Shown here: positions 9,525-27,431 of the stretch, in pieces
How positions within the stretch are numbered: the stretch's first letter is position 1
Layout: each line of letters begins with the position of its first letter
Virus record (IMG/VR): IMGVR_UViG_3300012954_000041
Location: 1-32,205 of that record
DNA from: a virus
DNA: 32,205 nt
Reading direction: 5' to 3' (one strand)
Translations under genes and position numbers: made by a program
The notes under the pieces: model-generated
Told to the model about the DNA's origin: nothing
Database searches by the model: none
The model's input: only the letters and a program-made list of their open reading frames with translations

Positions 9525-10979
9525 ATGCCATCTGTTTACCAACCGTGGGACAAACTGAAGACGTGTCTTGTTGGCAAATCATATCCTCCTGAGTTTTATT
9601 CATACATCAAAGATCCCAAAGCACGTGCTGGGATGGAAAGAATTGCTCAGGAAACTGAGGAAGACTACCAAAAACTCTGCGATAAATTGACGGAGTTAGG
9701 TGTCAATGTTATTAGAACTAATATTTCTGATGACTGGGAGAAGGATCATAACTGGGGATATCAATGTAAGTATCCTTCGGCAATGATTCCACGGGATCAC
9801 CTTGCAGTGATCGGTGACAAACTGTACATGCCGAACAGTGATTACCTAAAGAACATAGATCTTCGAGAGATGATCTACAGCATCCACAATCAGGACTGTA
9901 AGCGTGAGTGGATGCAACCTGGTGCTGACTTGGTTGCAGAGTTCATCCTTGACATGATGAAACCTGCTAGGGGTGTTCAGAATATGGATCCCATTGAGGA
10001 ACTCCGTGACTTCTACCATAACTATGGGTCCAAGCGTCGTGATGGTCACGCCTACAGTCTGGGTGGACTACTGGTAGGACTAGATCTAGAGGACATGGAG
10101 AGACTGTGTCTGAGTGCTGCTACTAATACCATTGGTGATCCTTACAGGGTCAATAGAGATTACAATGAGTTCCAAGATGCAGAGAAGTGGTTCAAAGACC
10201 AGGGTGGTGAAGTTGTATACAATCAGTACGTCAACAGTGCTGCCGTCATCAGTTGTGGTAGGGATCTATATTTCTCCCTGAACAACATCATAAACCTGGC
10301 AAACCAGGATACATTCATGGCGAAGTGGGAGCGTTTGTTCCCTGAGTTTAGAAATCATCCTCTGTATGTTCCTGGACATGGTGATGGTGCTTTGACTCCA
10401 GTCAAACCAGGATTGTTAGTTACTATTTCTAGAGAAGAATTCTTCGCAGAAACATTCCCTGGATGGGAGGTCTGTCGTATTCCTGGCAGTGGATGGAAGC
10501 AGATGGATGGTTTCTTGAAGATCAAGAAGAAAAACAAAGGACGTTGGTGGGTTCCTGGAGAGGAAGACAACGATGCGTTGACTGAGTTTGTGGAGACTTG
10601 GTTGAATGACTGGGTGATCTATGTTGAGGAGACGGTCTTTGATGTCAATATGCTGGTGGTGGATGAGAAGAATGTCATCTGTAACAACTACAATAAGAAA
10701 GTGTTTGATGCCTTTGAAAAGCATGGCATCACAGGTCACATCGTGAACTTCAGGCACCGTTACTTCTGGGATGGTGGACTGCACTGCATCACTCTCGACC
10801 TTGATCGTGAGGGAGAGATGCAAGACTTTTGGCCTGAGCGTGGTAATAAAAGTTATATCATTCAAGACCCCCGGTCACATAAAAAGTCAGAGATGTATAG
10901 TAAGTGGAGCAAGTATGACATGGAACGTCCTAGTTACAGGAAGGACCAAGAGATCTTGGCAGAGCGAAATAAGGATTGA
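9525..10979 (+). CDS. Glycine amidinotransferase-like enzyme (GATM superfamily)
   Basis: 484 residues. The family moves an amidino group from arginine to an amine acceptor through a covalent Cys intermediate, or hydrolyses it (arginine deiminase relatives). Visible landmarks are a PRD motif near residue 88, GLLVGLD, a CGRDLYFS strand, GHGDGALTPVKPGLLV and, near the C-terminus, FRHRYFWDGGLHCITLDL, where His420-Cys421 sit where the catalytic Cys is expected. It resembles the arginine:glycine amidinotransferase class more than deiminases by length and the GLHC context. Products such as guanidinoacetate or a guanidinylated metabolite or base are possible. The gene has its own late-promoter box upstream and is followed by a terminator-like hairpin. 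Confidence 0.8.
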   Translation: MPSVYQPWDKLKTCLVGKSYPPEFYSYIKDPKARAGMERIAQETEEDYQKLCDKLTELGVNVIRTNISDDWEKDHNWGYQCKYPSAMIPRDHLAVIGDKLYMPNSDYLKNIDLREMIYSIHNQDCKREWMQPGADLVAEFILDMMKPARGVQNMDPIEELRDFYHNYGSKRRDGHAYSLGGLLVGLDLEDMERLCLSAATNTIGDPYRVNRDYNEFQDAEKWFKDQGGEVVYNQYVNSAAVISCGRDLYFSLNNIINLANQDTFMAKWERLFPEFRNHPLYVPGHGDGALTPVKPGLLVTISREEFFAETFPGWEVCRIPGSGWKQMDGFLKIKKKNKGRWWVPGEEDNDALTEFVETWLNDWVIYVEETVFDVNMLVVDEKNVICNNYNKKVFDAFEKHGITGHIVNFRHRYFWDGGLHCITLDLDREGEMQDFWPERGNKSYIIQDPRSHKKSEMYSKWSKYDMERPSYRKDQEILAERNKD

Positions 10980-10996
10980 GTTTCTGCAAAACAGAA

Positions 10997-11035
10997 AAAA
11001 AATCTCCGACAAAAATTAGGGTTCTAAGATTTTTT
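10997..11035 (+). terminator. Weak terminator between amidinotransferase and petE
   Basis: AAAAAATCT pairs with AGATTTTTT (nine base pairs, loop 21). The stem is AT-rich, so efficiency may be low, but the geometry (A-tract stem and long loop) resembles the hairpin at 12050. Confidence 0.45.
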
Positions 11036-11036
11036 A

Positions 11037-11045
11037 TGATACAAT
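11037..11045 (+). promoter_or_regulatory. Extended -10 promoter for petE-petF
   Basis: TGATACAAT is TGN plus a five-of-six -10 match directly after the terminator-like hairpin. Predicted start near 11052 leaves a ~43-base leader before petE. No strong -35 is seen. Confidence 0.4.
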
Positions 11046-15450: not shown

Positions 15451-15476
15451 TGAGGTTGTAAAAATCTCATATAAGT

Positions 15477-15503: not shown

Positions 15504-15515
15504 CTGTTTTATAAT
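15487..15515 (+). promoter_or_regulatory. Consensus sigma70 promoter, predicted leaderless start
   Basis: TTGACA (15487-15492), 17-base spacer, TATAAT (15510-15515): perfect consensus. Transcription start seven bases after the -10 falls at 15522, the A of the next ATG. Confidence 0.85.
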
Positions 15516-15521
15516 AAAACT

Positions 15522-15674
15522 ATGGAACGAGACAAACTCAAACTAATCGTTTCCGACTTGGAAATGCTGCTTAGTGCACTCAAAGCAGAGGTCTACTCAG
15601 ATGTAGAAGCATATCGCTTCGATGAGATTGACCCTGTTGAAATTGACTACGACGAAACTTACGAAGGTCCATGA
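15522..15674 (+). CDS. Small acidic protein upstream of thyX
   Basis: 50 residues: a likely amphipathic helix (residues 1-30) and an acidic tail ending DYDETYEGP. No family recognised. The ATG coincides with the predicted start of transcription, so the mRNA may be leaderless, and its TGA overlaps the thyX ATG by four bases, so it may serve to couple thyX translation. Confidence 0.65.
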   Translation: MERDKLKLIVSDLEMLLSALKAEVYSDVEAYRFDEIDPVEIDYDETYEGP

Positions 15675-16318
15675 GCGTCAAACTAATTAGCGTCACTCCC
15701 GATGCGGAGCAGACGATGGCATACATCGCCCGCGTAAGCAACCCTGCAAACCAAGAGAACGAAAAATATGCAGGACTTCTGAAGTATTGCATCAAACACA
15801 ATCATTGGAGTGTATTTGAACAGTCTTCAATGACACTGGAGATATCAACTACACGTGCAATTTCAGCTCAAATTTTGAGACATAGGAGCTTTACATTTCA
15901 AGAATTTTCACAACGCTACGCTGATACTCAACTCCTAAAGGACAACATTCCCCTGCCAAAGATGCGTCGGCAGGATACAAAGAACAGACAGAACTCCATC
16001 GATGACCTGGATGATTTCATTGTCCAGAGACTAGAGTTGCAGATGCAAACTCTGTTCTCCTCTGCTCAGGCATTGTACAACCAGATGCTGGATGCAGGTG
16101 TGGCAAAGGAGTGTGCAAGAAATGTGCTTCCGTTATGCTCGCCCACCAAAATGTACATGACCGGTTCATGCAGATCATGGGCACATTACATCTCCCTCCG
16201 TACTGCTAACGGTACACAGCAGGAGCACATGGACATCGCTAAGGAGTGTAAAAAGATCTTCATTGAACAATTCCCTGCTGTTAGTGAGGCACTGGAATGG
16301 GTCGAATCTGCGGAATAA
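15671..16318 (+). CDS. thyX: Flavin-dependent thymidylate synthase
   Basis: 215 residues, usual ThyX length. The ThyX motif RHR-x7-S is at Arg70-His71-Arg72...Ser80, followed by QRY. It makes dTMP from dUMP using FAD, NADPH and methylene-tetrahydrofolate, supplying thymidine for phage DNA. The C-terminal RSWAHYISLRT carries the conserved Arg region. Transcribed from the perfect promoter at 15487, so probably early. The last 22 bases overlap the carbamoyltransferase gene. Confidence 0.95.
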   Translation: MSVKLISVTPDAEQTMAYIARVSNPANQENEKYAGLLKYCIKHNHWSVFEQSSMTLEISTTRAISAQILRHRSFTFQEFSQRYADTQLLKDNIPLPKMRRQDTKNRQNSIDDLDDFIVQRLELQMQTLFSSAQALYNQMLDAGVAKECARNVLPLCSPTKMYMTGSCRSWAHYISLRTANGTQQEHMDIAKECKKIFIEQFPAVSEALEWVESAE

Positions 16319-17289
16319 ATTTGTCGCACAATGGATCTCTTGCCATTCTTGAGGATGGGGAGGTCCAATTTTATGTGGAAGAGGAGAGATTGAGTCGTGT
16401 CAAGCGGGACAGGTCTGCCTACACTGCTGCGACTCAATTTTTAGATGATTTTATCGATGTGGTCACCATCAGTGACTGCTTCACCAAATATAACTTGGAA
16501 AAATACCTGCTTAGAACCAAGCAGGCAAACAAAATCATTGATCTAGTCAAGGAAAGGGGACTTCCTCTCAAGGATTATCGTGACAGACATCATGAATGTC
16601 ATGCAGCAAATGCCTACTACAACTCTGGGTTCGATAATGCTGCTGTCATTGTCATGGATGGCAAAGGTTCCCTCCATCCCCACAAAGACTGGAAGTTTTG
16701 TGAGACTGAAAGTATCTACGATGTGAGCGGCGGCAAGTTTGAGTCAGTCTTCAAACACTACTCAACATTCTGGAGTGAAGAGGAGTCTAAGAAGTTAGGT
16801 GCTTCCTTCTGGGATGGTGGAAACTTTTACAGCACCAGGACCAGCGTCGGTCAGGCATACCGCAGGGTGTCACGATACTGTGGGTTTGATGAGACACATG
16901 CTGGTAAAACCATGGGTCTATCAACATACGGTGCAGCACCTGAGGACCTGTTCGAGATTCACAATGGACACAGCGTGTGCTCCACTGAACTTAGTGCAGA
17001 AGGTAACACTACTAGTTACACAGGAATTGAATACCATCCTGAAGACTTAGCGTACCGACTCCAGAAGTCTGCCGAGAAGCATGCCTTATTCATGTTAGAG
17101 AAAGCGTATGAGTTGACCGGCAGGGAGAATGTGGTAGTGACAGGAGGATTCTTCCTCAACTGCATTGCCAACTATCAACTCCTGAAGACTGGCATAAATC
17201 TCTATGTAGATCCACTTGCATATGACGGCGGAATCGCCATTGGTTCTGCCCTTTTAGAACATTATGAGAACACTGTACCTCGGTCCTGA
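16297..17289 (+). CDS. Carbamoyltransferase N-domain subunit (NodU/CmcH/TobZ type)
   Basis: 330 residues. ICGINLSHNGSLAILEDG and VEEERLSRVKRD are the canonical N-terminal strands; H98-H99-E-C-H102 and YDGG near the end are the Fe-binding His/His/Asp of the Kae1-like fold; AGKTMGLSTYG and VVTGGFFLNCIANY are further family blocks. In TobZ-type enzymes this domain transfers carbamoyl from carbamoyl-adenylate to a hydroxyl. Usual family proteins are single chains of ~550 residues; here the C-domain is a separate gene in the +1 frame overlapping by 26 bases. The protein ends right at the normal domain boundary. Confidence 0.9.
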   Translation: MGRICGINLSHNGSLAILEDGEVQFYVEEERLSRVKRDRSAYTAATQFLDDFIDVVTISDCFTKYNLEKYLLRTKQANKIIDLVKERGLPLKDYRDRHHECHAANAYYNSGFDNAAVIVMDGKGSLHPHKDWKFCETESIYDVSGGKFESVFKHYSTFWSEEESKKLGASFWDGGNFYSTRTSVGQAYRRVSRYCGFDETHAGKTMGLSTYGAAPEDLFEIHNGHSVCSTELSAEGNTTSYTGIEYHPEDLAYRLQKSAEKHALFMLEKAYELTGRENVVVTGGFFLNCIANYQLLKTGINLYVDPLAYDGGIAIGSALLEHYENTVPRS

Positions 17290-17860
17290 ATACGATCTGT
17301 CTTCAATCAAAGGTGAGGATGTAACTTACGATGATGTAGCAGAGATCATTGCAGGTAGAGAACTAGTTGCTCTGTTCCAAGGCAGGTCAGAGGCAGGTCC
17401 TCGTGCTCTTGGCAATCGCTCTTTGCTTTATGACCCCCGTGATAATGAAGCACAGAAGGTAGTAAACAAAATAAAAAAGCGTGAGGAGTGGAGACCATTT
17501 GCTGCCAGCGTCATGCTTGAGTATGCAAATGATTGGTTTGATATGCAGGGACTTGATGAGTCACCCTTCATGATGTATGCCATGGATGCACGTCCAACTG
17601 GTTGGCATCTGATCCCAGGTGTCCTGCACATCGACAAAACTTGTCGCATCCAAACTGTTACTGAGAAACAGAACGAGCACTACTACAAACTGATCCGTGC
17701 ATTCTGGGACAGGACAAGCATCCCAATGCTATTCAACACCTCGTTCAACCTGGCAGGTCAACCCCTGGTAGAGACACCGCAAGATGCATTCGCTACCTTC
17801 AACATGTCAGACATACCTTACCTTTACTTTCCAGAGATCGGAAAGCTGGTACGAAAATGA
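17264..17860 (+). CDS. Carbamoyltransferase C-domain subunit (YrdC-like)
   Basis: 198 residues with GRSEAGPRALGNRSLLYDPR, REEWRPFAASV and FNTSFNLAGQPLVETPQDAF, the hallmark blocks of the carbamoyltransferase C-terminal (Carbam_trans_C) domain, which in TobZ makes carbamoyl-AMP from carbamoyl phosphate and ATP. It starts at an ATG inside the end of the N-domain gene without a clear Shine-Dalgarno, so coupled re-initiation is likely. It begins LYLGPEYD, the natural continuation of a single-chain enzyme. It may serve both N-domain proteins flanking it. Confidence 0.9.
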   Translation: MRTLYLGPEYDLSSIKGEDVTYDDVAEIIAGRELVALFQGRSEAGPRALGNRSLLYDPRDNEAQKVVNKIKKREEWRPFAASVMLEYANDWFDMQGLDESPFMMYAMDARPTGWHLIPGVLHIDKTCRIQTVTEKQNEHYYKLIRAFWDRTSIPMLFNTSFNLAGQPLVETPQDAFATFNMSDIPYLYFPEIGKLVRK

Positions 17861-17925
17861 CTTTTGAGTTACCAGAAACTGGAAAAAAAACTCGGGCAAA
17901 AAATTTGCTCCTAGGGTTGAACATG
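17852..17925 (+). repeat. Dispersed ~70-nt hairpin element, copy 1
   Basis: Matches 26814-26885. The core TACCAGAAACTGG, A8 and CTCGGG is identical in both. Contains hairpin CCAG-AAA-CTGG and hairpin GGGCAAA-AAA-TTTGCTC (17894-17910). Here it overlaps the first 22 codons of the second N-domain gene. Paired changes in the second stem between copies are described in the findings. Confidence 0.8.
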
Positions 17926-18672
17926 TCCAACAACGGTTCGGCATGTGTTTTAGAGGATGGTAAACCCGTTTGGTACCTGGAGGCAGAGCGTGCTTCTTAT
18001 GTAAAGTATGACTATGACATCAGGATTCTCCTTGACAGGTTGCCCAATGATATAGAGCACATTGCTCTGGCAGATTCTTTTTGGAAGCGAGGTAACAAGC
18101 AGGTCGATAACGTCAAGATTTTGTCTGCTGTCAAGAAAAAGTTCCCCGGTGCCACACTGTATGACTACAGGAAGAAGCACCACATGACACATGCAGCGTG
18201 TGGTTTCTACAACTCTGGGTTCACCAGTGCTACCTGCATTGTGGTTGATTCCAACGGATCAAAGACACCAGATGGACTAGAGATTGAGTCTGTCTTCTTT
18301 GCACCCACCTGGGACACCATTCACAAAACGATGTTCTCTCCTGACAGCATAGGTTTTGGTAGGAGATTTGAAGAGGCATGTGTTCACTATGGGTGGCACC
18401 ACATGGATGCAGGTAAGGTCATGGGCAAGAGTGCATATGATTCTGAACCTGCCAAGTCTCTACAGGCAGAGTGGGAGGAGAGGGTGCTCGACCTGATCTG
18501 TATGGCACCTACAAAGGATATTGTTCTGGCAGGTGGATGTTTCTTGAACTGTGTAGCAAACTATAAAGCACTCAAAAGATTCCCTGACTACAGGTTCTAT
18601 GCAGAACCACTAGCGAATGATGGAGGCACTGCTATGGGTGCTGCTTACCTGGCATACCATGGCATTGATTGA
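17857..18672 (+). CDS. Second carbamoyltransferase N-domain protein without C-domain
   Basis: 271 residues. LLLGLNMSNNGSACVLEDG aligns with the opening strand of the gene at 16297, so translation must begin before Met23 (17923), and the ATG at 17857, overlapping the preceding TGA, is preferred. Metal and nucleotide blocks remain: KKHHMTHAACGFYNSGF, DAGKVMG, VLAGGCFLNCVANY and PLANDGGTAMGAAY. It is about 60 residues shorter than its paralogue in the middle and has no adjoining C-domain of its own. It could use the C subunit encoded just upstream, giving two acceptor specificities from one carbamoyl-AMP source. The first 22 codons contain the dispersed hairpin element. Confidence 0.85.
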   Translation: MTFELPETGKKTRAKNLLLGLNMSNNGSACVLEDGKPVWYLEAERASYVKYDYDIRILLDRLPNDIEHIALADSFWKRGNKQVDNVKILSAVKKKFPGATLYDYRKKHHMTHAACGFYNSGFTSATCIVVDSNGSKTPDGLEIESVFFAPTWDTIHKTMFSPDSIGFGRRFEEACVHYGWHHMDAGKVMGKSAYDSEPAKSLQAEWEERVLDLICMAPTKDIVLAGGCFLNCVANYKALKRFPDYRFYAEPLANDGGTAMGAAYLAYHGID

Positions 18673-19450
18673 CATCCTAGACATCAGTGCATCGATTGGA
18701 TGTAACCTTCAGTGCAAGGGTTGCAACCATTTCAGTAACTATTTTGCTCCTGGTAGCAAGATTGATACGGATAGTTTACTCAAAGATATTGAAACGCTAC
18801 TACCCAGGGTAAATATTGGTAGGGTATCTGTTATTGGCGGTGAACCCCTACTGAATCCACGTTGCAGAGAGATTCTCGATGCATGTACAGCACACACTGA
18901 CGCTCCTGTTTATCTATACAGTAATGGTCTATTGCTCCTGGAGAATGAAACGTGGATCAAGGAAATCTTAGAGAATCCTCAGGTGTTTCTTAGGATCAGC
19001 ATTCATTTAGAAAGAGTAGAAGATATCATCAAAGAGTTCAACCACCCCAAGGTTCTCGTCACTGAGCACCATACAGGCAAGGACAGGTGGTTCAACTCAA
19101 TCAAGAAAAGGGATGGCAAGGTCCATCCCTACACCCACAACAATCCGGCAAAGAGTTTCAAGGTATGTTCCTGTCCTAATGCACAGTTGTATGGAGGGAA
19201 ACTATGGAAGTGTCCTAACACAGCATTCCTGAGGGAATTGTTGTATGTAACAGAACAGCAGGATGATCCTGAGTGGCAGGAGTATCTTGTCGATGGTCTT
19301 CCTGTCACTTGTAGTGATAATGAGTTGACAAAATTCTGTAGTAATAGTAAACTGCCTGAAAGCGTTTGTAACATGTGTACCGCCAAACCAATAAAGTTCA
19401 GTGCTGCACTGCAAGAACGCAGTAAACGAAAGGTTATTTCCCCAAAATAA
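18659..19450 (+). CDS. Radical SAM protein, paralogue of the gene at 21390
   Basis: 263 residues. Cys15-x3-Cys19-x2-Cys22 in GCNLQCKGCNHFSNYFAP binds 4Fe-4S; VSVIGGEPLLNPR is the SAM-binding GGE block. The C-terminal region, SCPNAQLYGGKLWKCPN...DDPEWQEYL and SVCNMC, is nearly the same as in 21390-22466 and probably binds an auxiliary cluster. The ATG at 18659 overlaps the previous gene by 14 bases; the upstream in-frame ATG at 18617 would extend deep into it. Placement behind carbamoyltransferase genes suggests a shared pathway. Substrate unknown. Confidence 0.85.
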   Translation: MALIDILDISASIGCNLQCKGCNHFSNYFAPGSKIDTDSLLKDIETLLPRVNIGRVSVIGGEPLLNPRCREILDACTAHTDAPVYLYSNGLLLLENETWIKEILENPQVFLRISIHLERVEDIIKEFNHPKVLVTEHHTGKDRWFNSIKKRDGKVHPYTHNNPAKSFKVCSCPNAQLYGGKLWKCPNTAFLRELLYVTEQQDDPEWQEYLVDGLPVTCSDNELTKFCSNSKLPESVCNMCTAKPIKFSAALQERSKRKVISPK

Positions 19451-19453
19451 ATA
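19446..19453 (+). promoter_or_regulatory. T4-type late promoter -10 box
   Basis: AATAAATA followed by CCC, seven of eight to TATAAATA, overlapping the radical SAM stop and 19 bases before the next ATG. Confidence 0.5.
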
Positions 19454-19471
19454 CCCAAAACTACCCCCCAC

Positions 19472-19723
19472 ATGCCAACATACCCCGTAAAAAATCTAGA
19501 AACAGGTGAGACAAAGGAATTGTCCATGACTGTCGCTGAGTATGATCAGTGGAAGAACGACAATCCTGCCTGGGATAAAGACTGGTCTAAAGGTGTTGCC
19601 TCTGCCGTTAGTGGTACAGGTGATGTCTATAGCAGAACTGATGGCGGATGGAACGAAGTTCTGTCAAAGGTTGCACAAGTCCCTGGTTCCAAAGTCAAGC
19701 CTCAGAAAACTACACACTCATGA
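19472..19723 (+). CDS. Conserved small T4-like phage protein upstream of phoH
   Basis: 83 residues beginning MPTYPVKNLETGETKELSMT, then a NPAWDKDWSKG block and GWNEVLSKVAQVPGS. This outline recurs in T4-like phages, sometimes annotated FmdB-like, but the zinc cysteines are absent here. Function unknown. Late-promoter box directly upstream; its TGA overlaps the phoH ATG. Confidence 0.75.
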   Translation: MPTYPVKNLETGETKELSMTVAEYDQWKNDNPAWDKDWSKGVASAVSGTGDVYSRTDGGWNEVLSKVAQVPGSKVKPQKTTHS

Positions 19724-20475
19724 CTGCACGTCGTAAGAAAATTTCGTCATCTGTCGGTGCTGGTATGACTGCTAAGCAAATGCGACGCAAAAAACCGATC
19801 AATTCTGATTCGATGGTAGACATCCTACCAATCACTGACAATCAGGAGACAGTCTTTCAGAAGTACAAGGAAGATCAGAACCTGTTTCTGTATGGGTGTG
19901 CTGGTACGGGTAAAACATTCATCACTCTCTACTTGGCATTGAAGGATGTTCTTGATCCTCTGAACCAATATAACAAGGTCGTTCTTGTTCGCTCATTGGT
20001 CTCTACTCGGGAGATTGGTTTTCTTCCCGGTGATCACGAGGATAAGTCCGCTCTTTACCAGATTCCTTACAAGAATATGGTGAAGTACATGTTCGAGATG
20101 CCTACGGACAATGACTTTGAGATGCTTTGGGGTAACCTCAAGACACAGGAGTCAGTGACGTTCTGGTCTACTAGTTTTATCCGTGGTACCACGTTGGATG
20201 ATGCTATTATTATTGTAGATGAGTCTCAGAACCTGAACTTCCACGAACTTGACAGTATCATCACCCGTGTTGGTGAAGGTTCTAAGATCATGTTCTGTGG
20301 TGACGTAGCACAGACTGATCTTGTCAAGACCAATGAGAAGAATGGAATCCTAGATTTCATGAAGATCGTTCAGCGTATGCCTGAGTTTGATGCGATTGAA
20401 TTCGGCATCGATGACATCGTACGCTCCGGTCTCGTCAAGTCTTATCTCACCAGTAAAATTGAACTTGGTATGTGA
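19720..20475 (+). CDS. phoH: PhoH-like P-loop ATPase
   Basis: 251 residues. Walker A GCAGTGKT (residues 59-66), KVVLVRSLVSTREIGFLPGD, and Walker B AIIIVDESQNL, all typical of PhoH, a helicase-like NTPase common in cyanophages and sometimes linked to phosphate starvation or RNA handling. The first 25 residues are basic and probably flexible. The ATG overlaps the previous TGA (ATGA); an upstream in-frame ATG at 19648 is buried in the preceding gene. Confidence 0.93.
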   Translation: MTARRKKISSSVGAGMTAKQMRRKKPINSDSMVDILPITDNQETVFQKYKEDQNLFLYGCAGTGKTFITLYLALKDVLDPLNQYNKVVLVRSLVSTREIGFLPGDHEDKSALYQIPYKNMVKYMFEMPTDNDFEMLWGNLKTQESVTFWSTSFIRGTTLDDAIIIVDESQNLNFHELDSIITRVGEGSKIMFCGDVAQTDLVKTNEKNGILDFMKIVQRMPEFDAIEFGIDDIVRSGLVKSYLTSKIELGM

Positions 20476-21164
20476 TGTTTGATTATGTAGAATGTGAACT
20501 TCCGCGACTCCAGCGGAAGAATATTGAAGGAGTTCGTTTCTACACAGTCAATGAGAGACCGATGGTGTCCATCACCTCGGTCACTTCTCATTGGAATGCT
20601 AAGAAATTTGTAGAGTGGCGGAAGCGTGTCGGTGATGACGAGGCAAACCGCATCACCAAGCGTGCTACTAGTCGTGGTACTGAATGTCATGAGTTGATTG
20701 AGACATTCCTGCTGAATAAAGAGGTTCAATATAAGAATCCTGGACCGAAGATGCTCTTTCTCCAGGCGAAAAAGACGTTGGAAAAGATAAATAATATCTA
20801 CGCATTAGAAAAAAGTCTCTACAGCGAAGAGCTTGGGGTAGCAGGCACAGTTGATTGCATCGCTGAGTACGAAGGCGAGCTTGCTATTATTGACTTCAAA
20901 ACATCAGCAAAACCTAAACCTAGATCTTGGATTGAAGGTTACTTTGTGCAGGCAGCAGCATATGCTTGTATGTTCTTTGAACGTACTGGTATTCCCGTCA
21001 AAAAACTTGTCATCATTATGACATGTGAGAACGGAGAGGTGCAAGTGTACGAAGAATATGATAAAATGAAATACATGAAACTTCTTGTTCTTTACATCGA
21101 CAAATTCGTTGAAGAAAAAATCACAGCACTCCAAGTCCGAAATGAAGTCTATTTTGAAGAGTAA
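20475..21164 (+). CDS. PD-(D/E)XK exonuclease
   Basis: 229 residues. GTECHELIE supplies the early acid/His of Cas4/RecB-type nucleases; GVAGTVDCIAEYEGELAIIDFKTS is the catalytic D...(D/E)xK core; YFVQAAAYACMF is the QxxxY helix. Such nucleases act on DNA ends or host DNA during phage replication. TGATG coupling with phoH supports the ATG at 20475; a GTG at 20472 adds one residue. No Cys cluster of the Cas4 iron-sulfur type is visible. Confidence 0.82.
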   Translation: MFDYVECELPRLQRKNIEGVRFYTVNERPMVSITSVTSHWNAKKFVEWRKRVGDDEANRITKRATSRGTECHELIETFLLNKEVQYKNPGPKMLFLQAKKTLEKINNIYALEKSLYSEELGVAGTVDCIAEYEGELAIIDFKTSAKPKPRSWIEGYFVQAAAYACMFFERTGIPVKKLVIIMTCENGEVQVYEEYDKMKYMKLLVLYIDKFVEEKITALQVRNEVYFEE

Positions 21165-21390
21165 GTTCTTGTGTCAAGACAAGTTCACGAATGACATTGA
21201 GAACTTAGTCAAAGACAATGCTGACATGAACTACATCGAGGCGATTTGTTTCTATTGTGAGACAAACAACATCGAGATCGAGTCAGTTTCTAATCTCATC
21301 ACCAAACCTTTGAAAGAAAAACTCAAAGGCAATGCGATGAACCTAAATTATTTGAAGAGGACATCTAGAGCAAAGTTCTTTAGTATCTAA
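21142..21390 (+). CDS. 33: gp33-like late transcription co-activator
   Basis: 82 residues: KFTNDIENLVKDN-DMNYIEAICFYCETNNIEIESVSNLI..PLKEKLKGNAMNLNYLKR. The order (an acidic N-terminus, DMNYIEAI..YCE...IE.E.V..L, then KEKLK..A..LNYLK) matches cyanophage gp33 as I know it. In T4, gp33 bridges RNA polymerase and the gp45 clamp for late promoters. The ATG at 21142 lies 22 bases inside the nuclease gene; an upstream in-frame ATG at 21085 would add 19 residues from that frame. It is located near gp59 and gp32 as in T4. Confidence 0.75.
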   Translation: MKSILKSKFLCQDKFTNDIENLVKDNADMNYIEAICFYCETNNIEIESVSNLITKPLKEKLKGNAMNLNYLKRTSRAKFFSI

Positions 21391-22466
21391 TGGACAAACG
21401 AGAGTTCAAACTATCTCAGATCAAGAGTCACCTATCACTAGAAAGACTTCGAGAAGTATCTGAGAGTGTGGACTTCGTTCGACAACAGAAAGGATTCTGG
21501 ATAACAAACTTCAAACAGGTTACTCCTGAAGAGATTGCATCTCTTGAGGCGGAGCGACCTACCACAAGACTGTTGAGCATACATGTCATCAACGGATGCA
21601 ACCTGGCATGCCGTGCATGTAACCATAACAGTAGTCTTCTTGGTGTCAAGAGTGGGGTAGACATCGATGCTTTGATGGAAGACATCAAAGAATTCTTGCC
21701 CAAAGTATATGTGTGGAGTCATATCAGTATCATTGGTGGTGAACCTTTACTAGAACCACGCACCAGAGAGGTCGTGAAGGTTACCAGAGAGGTCGCAGAG
21801 GCAACGGGGCAGACCTGTAACATAAAACTGTTTAGCAACGGTTCACGCCTCTTACAGGAGCAGGAGTGGATCGCTGATGAAATGTTGAAAGGTGTCAACT
21901 TCAGACTCACCTTTCATAAACCCTGGTTTACTGAGCAAGGATCAGTGAACTGGTGTAATACTGCAAAGTTCATCAGGTATCTTCAGTCCAGAGACGTGGA
22001 CATCGATAACCTGTTGGAGTTTAGTGAAGCATTCCGTTTACTGGATGGCAAACCCAGGCAGTGGTTTGACCTTGTGCGGTATGAGATCACAGAAGATCAA
22101 ATCAAATACTACCCATTCGAGGAAGGGAATCCTGAAGAAAGTTTTCAGCACTGCACCTGTCCCAATAGTCAGTTGTATAATGGACACCTGTGGAAGTGTC
22201 CCATGATCTCTTACCTTAGAGAATCATTGGATGCCACAGATCAACTCAATGATCCTGAATGGCAGAAGTATCTGGCGTACAAACCCACCAGCATCTCTGC
22301 TTCTACAGATGACATCCAAGCATCGTTTGATGAGGTAAAAAAACCTCATGAGATCTGCTCCATGTGTCCTCGCAACCCTGTGTGGTTCACAGCAACCAAA
22401 CAGTTGGATGCGAAATTGAAAAAGAACGTCGCAATGCACGATGAAGCAACCTATGACACCGTTTGA
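21390..22466 (+). CDS. Radical SAM protein inserted in the gp33-gp59 interval
   Basis: 358 residues. An N-terminal extension (~60 residues) precedes NGCNLACRACNHNSS, with Cys70-x3-Cys74-x2-Cys77, then ISIIGGEPLLEPR. The C-terminal block HCTCPNSQLYNGHLWKCP...NDPEWQKYL and ICSMCPRNP matches the gene at 18659 closely. TAATG coupling to gp33 and a 26-base overlap with gp59 show it is embedded in the replication/late-transcription operon. Co-expression with replication genes would fit a modification of DNA, nucleotide or protein, but this is inference. Confidence 0.87.
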   Translation: MDKREFKLSQIKSHLSLERLREVSESVDFVRQQKGFWITNFKQVTPEEIASLEAERPTTRLLSIHVINGCNLACRACNHNSSLLGVKSGVDIDALMEDIKEFLPKVYVWSHISIIGGEPLLEPRTREVVKVTREVAEATGQTCNIKLFSNGSRLLQEQEWIADEMLKGVNFRLTFHKPWFTEQGSVNWCNTAKFIRYLQSRDVDIDNLLEFSEAFRLLDGKPRQWFDLVRYEITEDQIKYYPFEEGNPEESFQHCTCPNSQLYNGHLWKCPMISYLRESLDATDQLNDPEWQKYLAYKPTSISASTDDIQASFDEVKKPHEICSMCPRNPVWFTATKQLDAKLKKNVAMHDEATYDTV

Positions 22467-23049
22467 TACTTACAAAGAGTATCTGGCGTACAAAAATCAC
22501 TTCTCCAAGGAGAAGTATGATTACTTTGTGTATGGCGGCAAGTCCAGAGCAAGTCTTGACTCCTTCTATAAGAGGAAGGACAGGTATTTTTTTGAGAAGA
22601 CATCAAGGAAGTACAAGGACGAGGACATCCGAAACTTCTTCCTTGCTAACTTTGTGAGCACTGATAACCCACAGGGTCTGTGGATCGGTAACATCATCCG
22701 TGGCGGTGAAGGAGTTTACGTGGCATGGCAGCGTCGTCAGCAGAGTTTGTTTTACAACTTCAAGAGCACCAACAAAAACATGTTGGAACAGTATGGGTTG
22801 CAGCAATTCATTGAAGTGAAGGGTGGTCACCCACCACTCCTCAAGGAATACCTGGCAGGCAACCTCAGCATTGAAGAGGCAGTAATCTATGAGAAGTTGT
22901 TTGGATACTGCAAAGACTACGACAAGAAATTAGATGACCCAGTGTGGCATCAGATCGGAATGAAAATCAAAAAGTATCTACCGTTTCTAAATATTGATAA
23001 AGAAAAGTATCGTATGCAAGTAATTGCTGAGGTCAAAGATCAATTCTAA
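22441..23049 (+). CDS. 59: gp59-like loader of replicative helicase
   Basis: 202 residues. F.TYKEYLAYKNHF..EKYDYFVYGGK, KRKDRYFFEK.SRKYKDEDIRNFFLANFV and GLWIGNI follow the same course as T4 gp59 (KLYLMIKQH, RRDKYFFQKLSEKYK, FISNLVANQDAWIGDI), and the C-terminal DDPVWHQIGMKIKKYLPFLNID matches too. In T4 gp59 loads gp41 helicase on gp32-covered DNA. Met5 (22453) is a possible alternative start. A TCTAAATA box at 22986 within the gene might serve downstream genes. Confidence 0.9.
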   Translation: MKQPMTPFDTYKEYLAYKNHFSKEKYDYFVYGGKSRASLDSFYKRKDRYFFEKTSRKYKDEDIRNFFLANFVSTDNPQGLWIGNIIRGGEGVYVAWQRRQQSLFYNFKSTNKNMLEQYGLQQFIEVKGGHPPLLKEYLAGNLSIEEAVIYEKLFGYCKDYDKKLDDPVWHQIGMKIKKYLPFLNIDKEKYRMQVIAEVKDQF

Positions 23050-23381
23050 TGAGCAAATTTTTTGAGAACGAGAATGTCCGCCGCGAAATGGAGGACATCT
23101 ATGACATTCAAAAAGAACTGTACAATGTGATCATGCAGTTCCCCTCCATGTCTGACGCTGCGAAGTGGGAGCACATTGAAACGTTGAAGAGTTTGATTGA
23201 GAAGCAGCAGATCATGTGGACCAGGGTCTCATACTCCGAAGACCCTGAAGCAGTTGACATGAAGAAAAAGATTCAGGAGTCTGCCAAACAGATTGGATTT
23301 GGTAACGCAGACATGAATACTATTTTCAGTAACATGAAGAACACCTTGAATCTGATGCAAACGCAACTAAAAAGGCAATGA
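23049..23381 (+). CDS. DUF1825-like protein
   Basis: 110 residues, helical, soluble. FFENENVRREMEDIYDIQKELY, WEHIETLKSLIEKQQIMWTRVSYSEDPEA and the Met-rich C-terminus follow the DUF1825 pattern shared by cyanobacteria and cyanophages. TAATG coupling with gp59. A role near replication is suggested only by position. Confidence 0.75.
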   Translation: MSKFFENENVRREMEDIYDIQKELYNVIMQFPSMSDAAKWEHIETLKSLIEKQQIMWTRVSYSEDPEAVDMKKKIQESAKQIGFGNADMNTIFSNMKNTLNLMQTQLKRQ

Positions 23382-24358
23382 AAGATTTACTGACTATTGG
23401 ATGCTCAATGACTTGGGGAGCTGAGCTTGAACGATTATTTTTGTTCAACGAATTAGGTTTAGAGCATGCTATTGTCCCCAAATATCAAGATGATGAGAGA
23501 GGTTTTGGTTATGTTCTAAAGGGGGAGAATGAATTAGTTGATAAGGTTTTTGGTGGTCCTTATATGGTAGATAACTCCCTTTCCAAAGAAATGGATCTGT
23601 ATCGAAAATCTAATAGATGGGGAGGACTCCTTGCTAAAAAGATGGGACTCAAGGAGGTTTCTCTTTCAAGAAATGGTCATTCTAATCAAGCAATGGTGCA
23701 CGACATTGCACGATACCTACAAGATGATAGTAGAAGAAAGAACTTAGATTATGCAGTGGTTCAACTTACATTTCCTAACAGGTCTATTGTTCCATCTGCA
23801 AGCAAAAAAATACTCTCGTCAATGTATCCTAACTTTAGGGAGTGGGAATATGCTGATTGGTATTTTGAGGGTGGTGCATATGTAAACAAAGTGTACTCTA
23901 TAAATGGATTGTGGTTGTCTGTTGGTGCAGGTCAATCTAGGTCAAAGCATAAAATACGCGAAGAAGGAGGTTATATGCGTCAGTTTTTCAATTCTCTAAC
24001 TAAATGTTCAGATGAATACTATGATGCGTTGACGTGGCATGCAATGTGGTCAATTTATGGACTGTTTGCAAATTATAATATTCCTATGAAAATATTTTTC
24101 ATTTCAGATATATCTGATACTGGATATCAGGACTCTATTCCGTGTAATGCAGTTTTAGATAATAATTTGTATATTGAGTGGGGTAGTGAGGAGTGGGATA
24201 AAATGCGTATAACATTTCCTGGTTTTGTTGGAAAATTTGGATGCATGGAATATAGAGATAATGAGGGTCATGCGTTGAGTGTCTATGGAACACATTTAGG
24301 TATAGAAGGTCATAAAATATGGGCAGATACTATTTTTGAATACATTGATTGTAAATAA
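23378..24358 (+). CDS. SGNH-hydrolase-like protein, AT-rich insertion
   Basis: 326 residues. GCSMTWGAE near the N-terminus fits SGNH block I (nucleophile Ser10), SLSRNGHSNQAM fits the Gly/Asn region, and GTHLGIEGHKIWAD near the C-terminus carries the late His block. The family includes esterases, acyl- and glycan-deacetylases; substrate unknown. Codon use is visibly AT-rich (many AAT, GAT, TAT, AAA) compared with neighbours, suggesting recent acquisition between gp59/DUF1825 and gp32. It is coupled by ATGA to the preceding gene. Confidence 0.68.
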   Translation: MKDLLTIGCSMTWGAELERLFLFNELGLEHAIVPKYQDDERGFGYVLKGENELVDKVFGGPYMVDNSLSKEMDLYRKSNRWGGLLAKKMGLKEVSLSRNGHSNQAMVHDIARYLQDDSRRKNLDYAVVQLTFPNRSIVPSASKKILSSMYPNFREWEYADWYFEGGAYVNKVYSINGLWLSVGAGQSRSKHKIREEGGYMRQFFNSLTKCSDEYYDALTWHAMWSIYGLFANYNIPMKIFFISDISDTGYQDSIPCNAVLDNNLYIEWGSEEWDKMRITFPGFVGKFGCMEYRDNEGHALSVYGTHLGIEGHKIWADTIFEYIDCK

Positions 24359-24361
24359 ATA
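24354..24361 (+). promoter_or_regulatory. T4-type late promoter -10 box
   Basis: AATAAATA, seven of eight, overlapping the SGNH gene stop and 16 bases before the ATG of the ABM-fold gene. Confidence 0.5.
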
Positions 24362-24377
24362 ACTTTTGTTTACTGCA

Positions 24378-24650
24378 ATGATTTCTGTTTTATTTGTTGG
24401 TAAGGTGAAGGAGTTCACTGACGAGTACAATGAGTACAATAACACCCTGCTGGATAGTGCACAGAAGATCCCAGGGTTTATAGGTATGGAGAGTGAGATG
24501 GTAGATGACATTGAGATCACCATCAGTCAGTGGCAGAGTGAAGATGACGTGCGGGAGTGGGCACGTGATCCAACGCACATGAAAGCAAAGCGAAGGGTCA
24601 AAAAATGGTACCACTGGTACCGCGCTAAACATTTTACGTCTAACCAATGA
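24378..24650 (+). CDS. ABM-fold protein (antibiotic biosynthesis monooxygenase-like)
   Basis: 90 residues. The pattern IPGFIGMESEMVDD-EITISQWQSEDDVREWARDPTHMKAKRR..KWYHWYRAKHF follows the dimeric alpha/beta ABM fold, whose members include quinol monooxygenases and heme-degrading enzymes. Heme or quinone chemistry would fit a photosynthetic host, but active-site identity is not clear. ATG at 24378 preferred over an upstream in-frame TTG. ATGA coupling to the next gene. Confidence 0.75.
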   Translation: MISVLFVGKVKEFTDEYNEYNNTLLDSAQKIPGFIGMESEMVDDIEITISQWQSEDDVREWARDPTHMKAKRRVKKWYHWYRAKHFTSNQ

Positions 24651-24874
24651 ACGAAGACGATCTGTATCCAGTGTTTGAGGATGACTGGTATGCATCCTTG
24701 AACATGGGCATACAGGAACTCCGTATGTTGTACAGTCACATCGAGTATTCAATCAAGATGTGGCCGGGTGCTCCTGCACGTCCAGTGGAGGAGCAAGAGT
24801 ATCTCCAGAAATTGAAGTCACGAATTGCAAGTGTAATAATGCAATACAACTTTGACATGCTGGAACTGGAGTGA
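24647..24874 (+). CDS. Hypothetical protein upstream of gp32 region
   Basis: 75 residues, acidic, helical, with WYASLNMGIQELRMLYSHIEYSIKMWPG near the N-terminus. No family recognised with confidence. The start overlaps the ABM gene stop (ATGA). The 3' end contains a near-consensus sigma70 promoter, so the region downstream can be expressed separately. Confidence 0.72.
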   Translation: MNEDDLYPVFEDDWYASLNMGIQELRMLYSHIEYSIKMWPGAPARPVEEQEYLQKLKSRIASVIMQYNFDMLELE

Positions 24875-24880
24875 TAGAAT
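24852..24880 (+). promoter_or_regulatory. Sigma70-type promoter inside the 3' end of a gene
   Basis: TTGACA (24852-24857), 17-base spacer, TAGAAT (24875-24880). Predicted start ~24887, 22 bases before the ATG at 24909. Confidence 0.7.
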
Positions 24881-24908
24881 GCACTTGTATCATGCACTCC
24901 GCATTGAA

Positions 24909-25235
24909 ATGACAAAGGGTTTCAAAGATCTTCGTAATGTAAAACCACGTCCTGACTTGACACCACAGACCACTACCGTTGACACGTCAGAGAAAAAGAA
25001 ACCTCAGACCCTGCTGAACAGCAAGCATCTTGCCTTTGATAAAGATGGCAATGTGGTAAACGCACGTGATCAAAGAGAGAAAAAAGCAATAGAAGATCGT
25101 AAGCGTATGAATGTGATTGTCGCCACTGGATTGCTGTTCATTGTTTTCGGTCAAGTTTATCTTGGTTCTGCTATCAACGGTATGACAAGAACCATCAACC
25201 GTCTTGCTGAAACTTCCTTGACAGGTGCTAAATAA
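24909..25235 (+). CDS. Small tail-anchored membrane protein upstream of gp32
   Basis: 108 residues. Residues 1-60 are polar and Lys-rich; the only membrane segment is near the C-terminus (~residues 68-86), ending VFGQVYLGS and a short polar tail. That ending resembles the protein at 12094-12339. The promoter at 24852-24880 favours ATG 24909, although ATG 24879 has a better ribosome site (GGAG) and would add ten residues. The stop is followed by overlapping early and late promoters of gp32. Confidence 0.65.
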   Translation: MTKGFKDLRNVKPRPDLTPQTTTVDTSEKKKPQTLLNSKHLAFDKDGNVVNARDQREKKAIEDRKRMNVIVATGLLFIVFGQVYLGSAINGMTRTINRLAETSLTGAK

Positions 25236-25246
25236 ATCGCTATATT
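25218..25246 (+). promoter_or_regulatory. Sigma70-type promoter of gp32
   Basis: TTGACA (25218-25223), 17-base spacer, TATATT (25241-25246). Predicted start ~25253, giving a 39-base leader. Confidence 0.75.
25227..25234 (+). promoter_or_regulatory. T4-type late promoter -10 box of gp32
   Basis: GCTAAATA followed by AAT lies inside the sigma70 spacer. Its predicted start is ~25240, upstream of the early start, so late mRNA has a longer leader. Confidence 0.5.
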
Positions 25247-25248
25247 AT

Positions 25249-25291
25249 GTAAGCGGTGACAATCTTACAAATCCACCGAATCTAATCTAAT
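25249..25291 (+). promoter_or_regulatory. Possible gp32 translational operator (pseudoknot-like)
   Basis: GTAAG (25249-25253) can pair with CTTAC (25264-25268), and CGGTG (25254-25258) with CACCG (25274-25278); the two helices interleave as in an H-type pseudoknot. An unstructured AATCTAATCTAAT repeat then runs to the ATG. T4 gp32 represses its own mRNA by binding an unstructured leader nucleated at a 5' pseudoknot. The zero-base first loop is sterically tight, so this may be two alternative hairpins instead. Confidence 0.4.
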
Positions 25292-26242
25292 ATGTCTTTT
25301 GCAGACCTCAAAAAACAATCTCGACTTGGTTCTCTGACTTCAAAGTTGACCAAGGAGATAGAAAAAATGAATACCAGCGGCGCTGGTAACACAGACGAAC
25401 GTCTGTGGAAACTTGAAGTCGATAAGGCAGGCAATGGTTATGCCGTCATCCGATTCTTGCCCGCTCCCGATGGAGAAGAACTCCCTTGGGCGAAGGTGTG
25501 GTCACACGCCTTCCAAGGACCTGGAGGTTGGTATATCGAAAATAGCCTGACCACCTTAGGACAGAAAGATCCTGTCTCTGAGTACAACCGTCTCCTTTGG
25601 AACAGTGGTACTGATAGTGACAAGGATTTGGCACGTAAGCAGAAGCGAAAGCTCACTTACATTGCGAACATCTACGTTGTCAAGGATCCGACTAACCCCC
25701 ATAACGAAGGACAAGTTTTCCTTTATAAGTTCGGAAAGAAGATCTTTGACAAGATCACTGCTGCCATGCAGCCTGAGTTTGAAGACGAAGAAGCAATCGA
25801 CCCGTTCGATTTTTGGCAAGGTGCGAACTTCAAACTGAAGGCAAAGAATGTTGCGGGTTACCGTAACTATGACAGTAGTGAGTTTGCTGCTGCATCTCCG
25901 GTGCTGGACGACGACGATGCCCTAGAGGCATTGTGGAAGAAACAGTATTCTCTAGAAGAATTTACTCGCCCTGATCAGTTCAAGGCATATGGGGAACTAG
26001 AGAAGCGTTTGAATTCCGTGTTGAACAACACCCGGAAACCAGTTGACCCTGAGACCTTCGATGAGGAGGAAGCAGCGGTCACTAAATCTCGTCAGCAAAT
26101 GGATGAGGAAGATCGTGTCGTCAAATCTGTTCCGAGATTCATCGATAATGAACCTGTTGTCGCGACCAGGTCAACAGATGTTGATGACTCAGATTCAGAT
26201 GACGATGCCCTGTCCTATTTTCAGAGACTTGCCGAGAGCTGA
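25292..26242 (+). CDS. 32: Single-stranded DNA-binding protein gp32
   Basis: 316 residues. N-terminal KKQSRLGSLTSKL resembles the LAST-type basic/Ser-Thr motif for cooperativity; the core WKLEVDKAGNGYAVIRFLPAPDG, WAKVWSHAFQGPGGWYIENSL and KRKLTYIANIYVVKDP is the OB-fold binding region; the acidic tail DVDDSDSDDDALSYFQRLAES mediates partner binding. T4 gp32 has a zinc site of three Cys and a His; no cysteine is present here, as expected for cyanophage relatives. It coats replication intermediates and works with gp59. It has early and late promoters and a candidate autoregulatory leader; a strong hairpin follows 39 bases after the stop. Confidence 0.95.
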   Translation: MSFADLKKQSRLGSLTSKLTKEIEKMNTSGAGNTDERLWKLEVDKAGNGYAVIRFLPAPDGEELPWAKVWSHAFQGPGGWYIENSLTTLGQKDPVSEYNRLLWNSGTDSDKDLARKQKRKLTYIANIYVVKDPTNPHNEGQVFLYKFGKKIFDKITAAMQPEFEDEEAIDPFDFWQGANFKLKAKNVAGYRNYDSSEFAAASPVLDDDDALEALWKKQYSLEEFTRPDQFKAYGELEKRLNSVLNNTRKPVDPETFDEEEAAVTKSRQQMDEEDRVVKSVPRFIDNEPVVATRSTDVDDSDSDDDALSYFQRLAES

Positions 26243-26245
26243 GGC

Positions 26246-26812
26246 ATGAAGTTTTACAGCTTCAACGAGCTGATTGGAGTCTGGGATGGGGAGCTCCCCA
26301 TCCTGGACTTTTCTCTTAGGAAGATCTATGAATGGAGGGATGAGTTCCCTGAGTCAGAAGGCAATTCCAACATCGAGGGTTGGCAACGCACTGGTATGCA
26401 CAAGGATGGGCGATTCAGTTCACTGATGTCACTCATCGCAAATAAGTCTCGGGAATACATCGATCAGCATGATGTAAAACCACCCCGTTACATGGAAATT
26501 GTTCACGCCTTTGCCAACATCAATGGACCTGGTGCATCAAACTGCATGCATCATCACACCTATGGTCAGATCAGTGGGGTGTACTGGTTGAAAACTCCAC
26601 GCAATAGTGGTGATCTGATCATCATGAGTCCTTTTCACAACCAATACCTGAATACCTCGTGTGTATCAAAAATAGACCGCAATGCGATGGTCATCGAACC
26701 CAAATCAAACACAGGGGTGTTTTTCAACAGCAATCTAGTTCATTACGTAGATCAGAACCGATCAAGCAAAGATAGGGTGTCTGTAGCGTTTCACATCCTT
26801 CTTCACCCGTAG
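26246..26812 (+). CDS. 2OG-Fe(II) oxygenase (2OG-FeII_Oxy_5/TIGR02466-like)
   Basis: 188 residues. CMHHHTYGQISGVYWLKTPRN, GDLIIMSP, IEPKSNTGVFFNSNLVHYVD and DRVSVAFHI follow the small oxygenase family that includes many phage members: an early His site, a distal His (LVHYV) and the 2-oxoglutarate-binding Arg (DRVSV). Substrate unknown. It starts three bases after gp32, and its codons 12-23 contain a perfect terminator-like palindrome, so its expression would depend on read-through. Confidence 0.85.
   Translation: MKFYSFNELIGVWDGELPILDFSLRKIYEWRDEFPESEGNSNIEGWQRTGMHKDGRFSSLMSLIANKSREYIDQHDVKPPRYMEIVHAFANINGPGASNCMHHHTYGQISGVYWLKTPRNSGDLIIMSPFHNQYLNTSCVSKIDRNAMVIEPKSNTGVFFNSNLVHYVDQNRSSKDRVSVAFHILLHP
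26281..26312 (+). terminator. Strong hairpin within the start of the gene after gp32
   Basis: GGATGGGG-AGCT-CCCCATCC is a perfect 20-base palindrome (26284-26303), extendable to 11 pairs with two G.U wobbles, then ACTTTTCTCTT. It is coding (VWDGELPIL) but has terminator-like geometry 39 bases after the gp32 stop, so it may cap or attenuate gp32 mRNA. Confidence 0.6.
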
Positions 26813-26813
26813 C

Positions 26814-26885
26814 GAAAACGAACTTTCAAATACCAGAAACTGGAAAAAAAACTCGGGGTAAAAATTGCCCCTATAGGATTTTATG
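26814..26885 (+). repeat. Dispersed ~70-nt hairpin element, copy 2
   Basis: Matches 17852-17925 with the same spacing from CGAAAA through the core TACCAGAAACTGG, A8, CTCGGG, to an ATG. Contains CCAG-AAA-CTGG and GGGGTAA-AAA-TTGCCCC (26856-26872). The position of the first ATG in copy 1 is ACG here, so this copy is non-coding or a relic and precedes the oxygenase at 26883. Confidence 0.8.
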
Positions 26886-27431
26886 TACAAAAACATAGTC
26901 ATCATAGAACGGAATATCGATGTGACGCCGTTTTTGGAGGAATTGAACCCAGATCACTGGGACTGGGTTTCGCAGCAAACGGGGAATAACCTAGGAGGCG
27001 ACAGAAACCCATATGGGTTCTTACCGCTAGTTTGGGCAAAAGTTCAAAAAGGCGAAGATCCGCATGATGCGATGGGACAAGAAAAAACGGCACTTTACGA
27101 CTTATACCCCAAAGTGCACGAATTTTGGAAAAAGCACAATATCACCGAAACTGGCAGAGCAGCATTTTTCCGATTACAACCCGGAAAACGTGTTTTGGAG
27201 CATATTGACCGTGGTGAGTATTATAAGAAAAAAGACCGATATCACCTATCTCTGCAAGGCACCTATTTGTACCGTGTTGGTGATGAAAGCATGATTGTGC
27301 CACCTGGCACGTTTTTCTGGTTCCACAACAAATTACCCCACGAGGCATTCAACGTGGGGAATGTTGATAGGTATTCACTGGTCTGGGATGTTCCTCACAG
27401 TCCCAATAACCCACATTTAGCGAAGTGCTAA
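26883..27431 (+). CDS. Aspartyl/asparaginyl beta-hydroxylase-like oxygenase
   Basis: 182 residues. FFRLQPGKRVLEHIDRGEYY (HxD iron site), DRYHLSLQGTYLYRVGDE, PPGTFFWFHNKLPHEAFNVG (distal His) and DRYSLVWDV (2OG-binding Arg) are the core of the Asp/Asn hydroxylase family. It would hydroxylate a protein side chain or small molecule; the target is unknown. The start follows the dispersed hairpin element. The 3' end overlaps the convergent gp53 gene by 15 bases with no terminator between. Confidence 0.85.
   Translation: MYKNIVIIERNIDVTPFLEELNPDHWDWVSQQTGNNLGGDRNPYGFLPLVWAKVQKGEDPHDAMGQEKTALYDLYPKVHEFWKKHNITETGRAAFFRLQPGKRVLEHIDRGEYYKKKDRYHLSLQGTYLYRVGDESMIVPPGTFFWFHNKLPHEAFNVGNVDRYSLVWDVPHSPNNPHLAKC

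Follow-up and report, generated by a model that had tools for sequence, protein, structure and literature searches.

A dispersed element at gene boundaries of marine T4-like cyanophages, a candidate transcription boundary with signs of exchange between loci

The viral stretch analysed here (IMG/VR record IMGVR_UViG_3300012954_000041, positions 1 to 32,205; the whole 32,205-nt stretch is referred to as the window) looks like part of a T4-like cyanophage by its genes, with psbA- and psbD-like open reading frames (ORFs) recognised by eye and a PhotoRC-II RNA (Rfam RF01717, 73.9 bits) at 5457 to 5553, before psbA. At two of its gene boundaries it carries copies, w1 and w2, of an element of about 70 nt, which raises the question of what such a repeat does there. 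An earlier sequence-only reading had taken it either for a mobile 5' regulatory RNA, whose second hairpin would be kept by compensatory base changes, or for the relic of a gene start. The repeat itself is genuine, and both copies lie where that reading had placed them: they share 27 identical nt (Table 1) and are 85% identical across a 54-nt alignment, and the 25-mer CCAGAAACTGGAAAAAAAACTCGGG has exactly two sites in the window with up to three mismatches tolerated, compared with none in 100 shuffles. The account that we prefer, if tentatively, is that this is a boundary element lying between genes of marine T4-like cyanophages, which may serve as a transcription boundary and which would be homogenised, and would swap its neighbours, through recombination.

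Occurrence and position of the element

The repeat is limited neither to the two copies recognised at first nor to the window. A third, weaker window copy (w3), which had been missed, was detected with R1, a sequence-only profile built from 19 copies (31.9 bits, E 1.6e-8); the ORF before it has no Pfam match. Outside the window, blastn with w1 as query returned 16 records, 14 of which were cyanophages (some phages under two accessions), the phages matched being syn9, Syn10, Sf-FS3, S-SM1, P-RSM1, P-HM1, P-HM2 and S-SM2; the w2 query returned 45 records, all at E 3 to 10 and none bearing the name of a cyanophage. Queries with newly found copies reached S-RIM2, S-CAM22, S-SSM4, S-ShM2, Syn19, P-SSM4, Bellamy, ACG-2014d, S-MbCM25 and others, and also gave short chance matches in unrelated phages. 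Similarity searches, together with scans of viral contigs for exact patterns, yielded 104 distinct copies in 1.14 Mb of cyanophage loci, and the proposal that cyanophage genomes be searched for the element was in this way answered with many copies. The annotated records that bear them span 13 named Kyanoviridae genera as well as Eurybiavirus. Removal of one copy that was too short and of 37 that were at least 85% identical to another left a non-redundant set of 66, and the flanks were long enough for context analysis in 97 of the 104.

The R1 profile gave one to five matches per record at E <=0.1 in 22 copy-bearing records, the weakest of these matches being doubtful; since the copies were gathered by their likeness and these records were picked for bearing one, the conservation and the count of 22 of 22 hold partly by construction. 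Among seven control phage records picked by name, P-SSM2 had one match (32.9 bits), S-PM2 and S-RSM4 had three weak matches each (best 20.7 and 23.1 bits, respectively), RB49 reached 11.4 bits, and S-CRM01, T4 and HTVC008M had no match. A look for a host origin in one WH7803 genome gave nothing convincing. Among 151 genomes of the family of WH7803, searched under strict filters, 17 had a profile match at E <=0.01, the best of which (29.5 bits) covered the profile only in part. A look-alike of the 3' half of the element was found at four picocyanobacterial loci, L263, L264 (genome G039), L265 (G128) and L266 (G063). Like the element, it has about 40 to 44 nt including CCGCC...AAAAATT and AAG(G/A)TTTTTT, but it lacks the left half and is followed by TTGGCGGA repeats. 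Its diagnostic pattern is present in four of the 151 genomes, and in G039 it stands just before one or more TPR-type genes on the same strand.

With the A8 run taken as position 0, the aligned copies have in common A-runs near -30 to -27 and -11 to -6, TTTT at -21 to -18, a CCGCC-like stretch at +10 to +14, AAAAATT at +15 to +21 and a T-run at +34 to +38. An upstream plus-strand ORF ends between -60 and 0 in 56 of the 66 copies, with modes near -34, -22 and -15, so that the element often includes its stop codon; as a rule, this stop opens the element and a T-run closes it. At the left end of w1, for example, the stop TGA of the upstream gene (17858 to 17860) overlaps the ATG at 17857 with which the following ORF starts; w2, by comparison, is untranslated between its two flanking ORFs. 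On the downstream side, three classes that can overlap were distinguished, namely a start codon at +34 to +50 (23 of 66 copies), a convergent ORF end (20 of 66) and the late-promoter motif TAAATA (10 of 66), and 17 of the 66 copies have none of the three. The sequence NATAAATA is given as a late promoter in a passage of PMC2984593. At 17 annotated loci the element is mostly intergenic or lies across a gene end, and small coding sequences are annotated across it in P-HM1 (PHM1_229) and Bellamy (gene 22). Over the 77 kb of annotated syn9 sequence examined there is a single convergent junction, which bears a copy, and one syn9 copy lies directly 3' of a tRNA gene. In S-MbCM25, ACG-2014d and P-HM1, what resembles by eye a composite of terminator and early promoter adjoins the element.

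Some copies are variants in the region of the left A-run, which reads ATATATAAT in L228, L237, L242, L243, L247, L250, L049 and L069, while ATATATTAT stands at the same place in L225 and in other copies of L243 and L250. This box resembles a -10 element and keeps a fixed position, which hints that a promoter may have been gained inside some copies.

Hairpins, exchange and the transcription-boundary reading

Because the element marks gene ends and sometimes precedes a new start of transcription, it can be read as a transcription boundary cassette. A hairpin followed by a T-run at <=-6 kcal/mol was found on the minus strand in 29 of the 66 copies (44%, compared with 19% in tract-keeping shuffles), on the plus strand in eight (12%, shuffles 5%) and on either strand in 32 (null 22%). 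L068 and L247 are bidirectional terminator-like at the aligned place (-16.5 plus and -14.7 minus kcal/mol, and -17.0 plus and -15.2 minus kcal/mol, respectively), a second copy in L243 also has a perfect bidirectional terminator form there, and the P-SSM2 copy reads as a bidirectional terminator by eye. On the minus strand of w1 and w2, the second stem is followed by GAG and T8.

The copies at different loci also appear to exchange sequence with one another. In its core, w2 shares 79% identity with w1, compared with 63 to 67% with its own orthologues in the genomes G002, G003 and G005, whereas the flanks of w2 are 62 to 73% identical to those orthologues and only 32 to 33% to w1. The core is thus nearer to another locus than to its own orthologues while the flanks are not, which points to exchange between copies. 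This is most simply explained if, in the lineage to which the window and genome G004 belong, w2 was overwritten by a core like that of w1. The suggestion that the element is mobile or dispersed is also borne out by its neighbours: among the 97 copies, 24 upstream and 23 downstream contexts occur in 34 combinations, and five contexts on each side have more than one partner. Seven different upstream contexts are paired with downstream context 0, to which the convergent gp53-side junctions of syn9, S-SM1, Syn19 and P-SSM4 belong.

The alignments of such copies place the switch at the borders of the element. In pairs that share only the upstream context, a single gapped alignment runs through neighbour and element in 51 of 80 and ends at +38 to +53 in 47 of these; where only the downstream context is common to the pair, it does so in 64 of 91 and ends at -54 to -29 in 57 of the 64, the pairs not being independent and only these 51 and 64 being scorable. 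As the one-sided alignments stop at the far edge of the element, unrelated genes abut that edge directly. P-HM2 and L241, L172 and L223, and syn9 and L199 are examples of such an edge switch; in Bellamy and L184, and in S-SSM4 and ACG-2014d, both neighbours are common to the pair. Taken together, the comparisons support exchange between copies well and point to the element as a place where recombination swaps neighbouring genes, although the controls given below back an enrichment only in part.

Taken as a boundary, the element at the 3' end of a gene would stop or insulate transcription toward the next cistron, late promoter or convergent operon. The stop would be brought about by a small hairpin and T-run, re-formed differently in different lineages, and recombination from one locus to another would keep the copies alike and swap them along with the genes beside them. 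Its location, its dispersal, the exchange between its loci and the lack of a common RNA fold are demonstrated by the sequence comparisons; that it stops transcription we infer from a patchy set of hairpins.

A number of observations weigh against this account. No terminator-like hairpin at <=-6 kcal/mol is present on either strand in 34 of the 66 copies, and a simple terminator scan of positions 10900 to 27000 lists none of w1, w2 and w3. The polarity of the hairpins is mostly that of the minus strand, which is odd at the 3' ends of plus-strand genes, and with a start codon directly after 23 of the 66 copies, a stop on the plus strand would silence the gene unless there is read-through. Moreover, an intrinsic terminator would not need tight sequence conservation at unrelated loci, and with so few copies per genome the element is not the general terminator. 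As regards the exchange, alignments that end at the edges are in part what would be expected from any two copies whose other flanks are unrelated. In a small control set of 44 junctions without the element, one-sided pairs make up a similar share overall (64 of 126, compared with 171 of 314 for the element). The control is lower at >=80% identity (4 of 34, compared with 64 of 145) and at >=90% (2 of 17, compared with 16 of 73), so that an enrichment is suggested but not proven.

A wider interpretation, which we put forward as a possibility, is that the copies belong to an unnamed family of mobile, sequence-conserved intergenic joints of marine T4-like cyanophages. On one side such a joint would provide the stop codon and end of a gene, and on its other side a start site, a late promoter or the end of a convergent gene. 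These joints would spread by recombination, would provide a seam for the trade of accessory genes and would sometimes become part of a protein, as in w1. Cyanophages exchange metabolic genes of host origin (in this window those for plastocyanin, oxygenases and carbamoyltransferases), and the seams of this exchange are little known; a dispersed and conserved joint with signs of exchange offers a concrete candidate that can be tested.

Alternative explanations

An unlikely alternative is that the element is a recombination patch without a regulatory role, that is, a short island of homology for the swapping of neighbours, kept alike by conversion alone. The exchange between loci, the switch of neighbours exactly at the element edges and the 34 context combinations are what such a patch would leave behind. 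Conversion alone, however, does not account for the fixed orientation, for the narrow range of distances from the upstream stop codon or for conservation across genera. It also leaves aside the predicted folding: the mean minimum free energy of the copies is below that of tract-keeping shuffles on both strands (-14.0 compared with -11.4 on the plus strand, -15.7 compared with -13.0 on the minus strand).

We also think it improbable that the element is a site between cistrons recognised in a sequence-specific way by a protein or nuclease of the phage or the host, such as an RNase E-type enzyme acting at the A8 and AAAAAWTT runs or an RNA-binding repressor. What is conserved is the primary sequence, with its A- and T-runs at set distances, and not the pairing, which would suit such a site, as would the copies placed directly before a start codon. 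On the other hand, the convergent copies have no plus-strand cistron after them, and collecting copies by similarity inflates their conservation. We know of no protein that binds the element.

Far less probable, and largely refuted by the comparison of copies, is the structured 5' regulatory RNA with a conserved second hairpin, which the sequence-only reading had put first. Within the window its description was accurate as regards the second stem, which has seven pairs and an AAA loop in each copy and is present in the predicted folds of both w1 (z -1.74) and w2 (z -2.25) despite three changed pairs. The first hairpin, CCAG/CTGG, was confirmed in the fold of w2; in w1 it appears in the centroid only and is absent from the minimum-energy fold. 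Beyond the two copies, the pairing does not hold. The second stem is full in w1, in w2 and in the w1 orthologues L010 and L055, and has six pairs in the w2 orthologue L011, but only three to five pairs remain in the sister-lineage orthologues of w1 (L012, L014 and L015) and of w2 (L050, L056 and L058). At least six of the seven pairs form in 4 of the 66 copies, compared with 7% after permutation of the arms. The base changes that had been taken as compensatory therefore belong to a lineage-specific pairing, and it is worth bearing in mind that such changes between two copies can be misleading.

RNAalifold returned no consensus pair for 38 copies. A scan of all 5-bp helices in the same 38 copies gave a best z of 4.95 without any convincing helix; the top scores (z 3.4 to 4.95) sit in the stretch of the proposed stem, in neighbouring registers, which may be counted in favour of a structure, but these helices form on average 1.7 to 2.5 of their five pairs. 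The test for covariation came out negative as well, since none of the helices H0, H1, H2, H2b and H5, the proposed first hairpin and the proposed second stem exceeded its largest arm permutation over the 66 copies; H2 came nearest, with 52% of copies compared with a null mean of 42% and maximum of 53%. In Rfam, nine element loci searched at E up to 1 matched only a tRNA and the window at gathering scores matched PhotoRC-II alone, the element being unmatched in both searches. That the P-HM1 copy lies just downstream of what resembles by eye a terminator and promoter would agree with a 5' RNA. With the stem lost in the sister lineage, no consensus fold and the permutation null unbeaten, the structured-RNA reading is nevertheless unsupported, and on the aligned copies the element is conserved in primary sequence without a common RNA fold.

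Intrinsically curved DNA through helically phased A-tracts is a highly improbable explanation: the A- and T-runs do lie at conserved positions, with phasing slightly above random at periods of 11 (0.52 compared with 0.46) and 11.5 (0.51 compared with 0.44), but at 10.5 bp the phasing is 0.415 compared with 0.453 at random, and it is below random at 9.5 to 10 (65 of the 66 copies scored).

Hardly credible, finally, is a conserved coding start (peptide MTFELPETGKK...) of which w2 would be a relic. A carbamoyltransferase-like ORF does begin inside w1, in frame, and both the translation MTFELPETGKKTRAKN and the ACG of w2 had been given correctly; in L009, moreover, no alternative in-frame start is visible by eye ahead of the conserved GFNLSNNGS. 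The peptide, however, is not kept. Comparison of w1 with four closely related sister-lineage orthologues gave 7 to 8 non-synonymous and no synonymous changes in the 21 element codons, against 32 to 37 and 20 to 26, respectively, in the next 74 (codons 22 to 95); the two close orthologues L010 and L055 differ from w1 in the element codons by 0 non-synonymous and 1 to 2 synonymous changes. It had been reasoned that a mere peptide-coding start would lose the stems and vary only at synonymous positions: the stems are indeed lost, but the changes in the sister lineage all alter amino acids, so the element is not simply a conserved peptide. It is also mostly intergenic or over a gene end at the 17 annotated loci, and is read through in w1. 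In Sf-FS3 the annotated start of the carbamoyltransferase lies after the element, that protein being barely similar to the one in the window (E 0.084). As the frame is kept and the peptide is not visibly constrained, the element probably became an N-terminal extension in w1.

Other features of the window and comparison with known systems

The positions of the copies and their parts are collected in Table 1. The oxygenase that had been named after w2 is a gene matching Asp_Arg_Hydrox, and it is the gene before w2 that matches 2OG-FeII_Oxy_5.

Table 1. Element copies in the window and the features within them
Feature	Position	Strand	Remarks
Copy w1	17852..17925	+	Flanked by Carbam_trans_C gene / Carbam_trans_N-like gene
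Copy w2	26810..26887	+	Flanked by 2OG-FeII_Oxy_5 gene (end 26812) / Asp_Arg_Hydrox gene (start 26883)
Copy w3, degenerate	10976..11038	+	Flanked by 484-aa ORF (end 10979) / plastocyanin ORF (11095); profile R1
Identical 27-nt core, w1 side	17870..17896	+	Equals 26831-26857
Identical 27-nt core, w2 side	26831..26857	+	Equals 17870-17896; deviates from w2 sister-lineage orthologues
Second stem, w1	17894..17910	+	17894-17900/17904-17910, GGGCAAA/TTTGCTC, 7 pairs (one G-U), AAA loop
Second stem, w2	26855..26871	+	26855-26861/26865-26871, GGGGTAA/TTGCCCC, 7 pairs (one U-G), AAA loop
In-frame N-terminal extension	17857..17919	+	Codons 1-21 of carbamoyltransferase-like ORF 17857-18672

The genes around w1 form a split carbamoyltransferase, in which an N-domain ORF (16297 to 17289) overlaps a separate C-domain ORF (17264 to 17860). 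The second N-domain paralogue, which ends at 18672 and starts inside the element, is 30% identical and lacks a C-domain. Elsewhere in the window, positions 340 to 5424 hold a paralogous gene array with DNA repeats that are about 60 to 90% identical, and three 27-nt tandem repeats at 8463 to 8543 encode HHHDDS(M/V/K)I(A/T) within a 246-aa ORF whose start resembles a signal sequence by eye; metal binding by these repeats is possible. Two terminator hairpins are overlapped by promoters, at 15477 to 15515 (TTGACA/TATAAT, 17-nt spacer, 12 of 12 sigma-70 matches) and at 14971 to 15015 (TTGATA/TATAAT, 16-nt spacer, 11 of 12 matches). Both composites resemble the promoter-early stem-loops (PeSLs) discussed below and are separate from the element.

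No description of the element was found among the top-ranked results of searches of open-access PMC papers. It resembles intrinsic bidirectional terminators in its site at gene ends, in its convergent junctions and in the hairpin and T-run of L068, L247 and others, and differs from them in that its sequence is conserved at unrelated loci and that about half of the copies have no convincing hairpin. Among the cyanophage cis-RNAs in Rfam, PhotoRC-II, wcaG and manA are presented in parts of PMC2864571 as structure-based motifs. The element is, like these, noncoding, found in marine T4-like cyanophages and often placed before genes, but unlike them it has no consensus fold and, in the window and the nine loci searched, no Rfam match.

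PeSLs combine a strong sigma-70 early promoter with a terminator stem-loop, whose termination is reported to be effective in vivo, and act as recombination sites that exchange neighbouring genes. They were reportedly described in T4-like phages by Arbiol et al. in 2010 and by Comeau et al. in 2014. In its remarks on them, PMC4503421 cites and briefly describes PeSLs and considers it unlikely that they mediated acquisition in the region of S-PM2 studied there. The element differs from a PeSL in that a clear terminator is present in only part of its copies, that there are few copies per genome and that a late-promoter motif follows it at some loci. A promoter scan of positions 10900 to 27000 also found no sigma-70 promoter-like site at w1, w2 or w3, and since the promoter that defines PeSLs is missing from these window copies, membership is not claimed. 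The likeness is nonetheless considerable, as both are short intergenic cassettes at gene boundaries of T4-like phages, with recombination between copies and a link to the gain and loss of genes, and by this analogy a PeSL-like function of the element is plausible.

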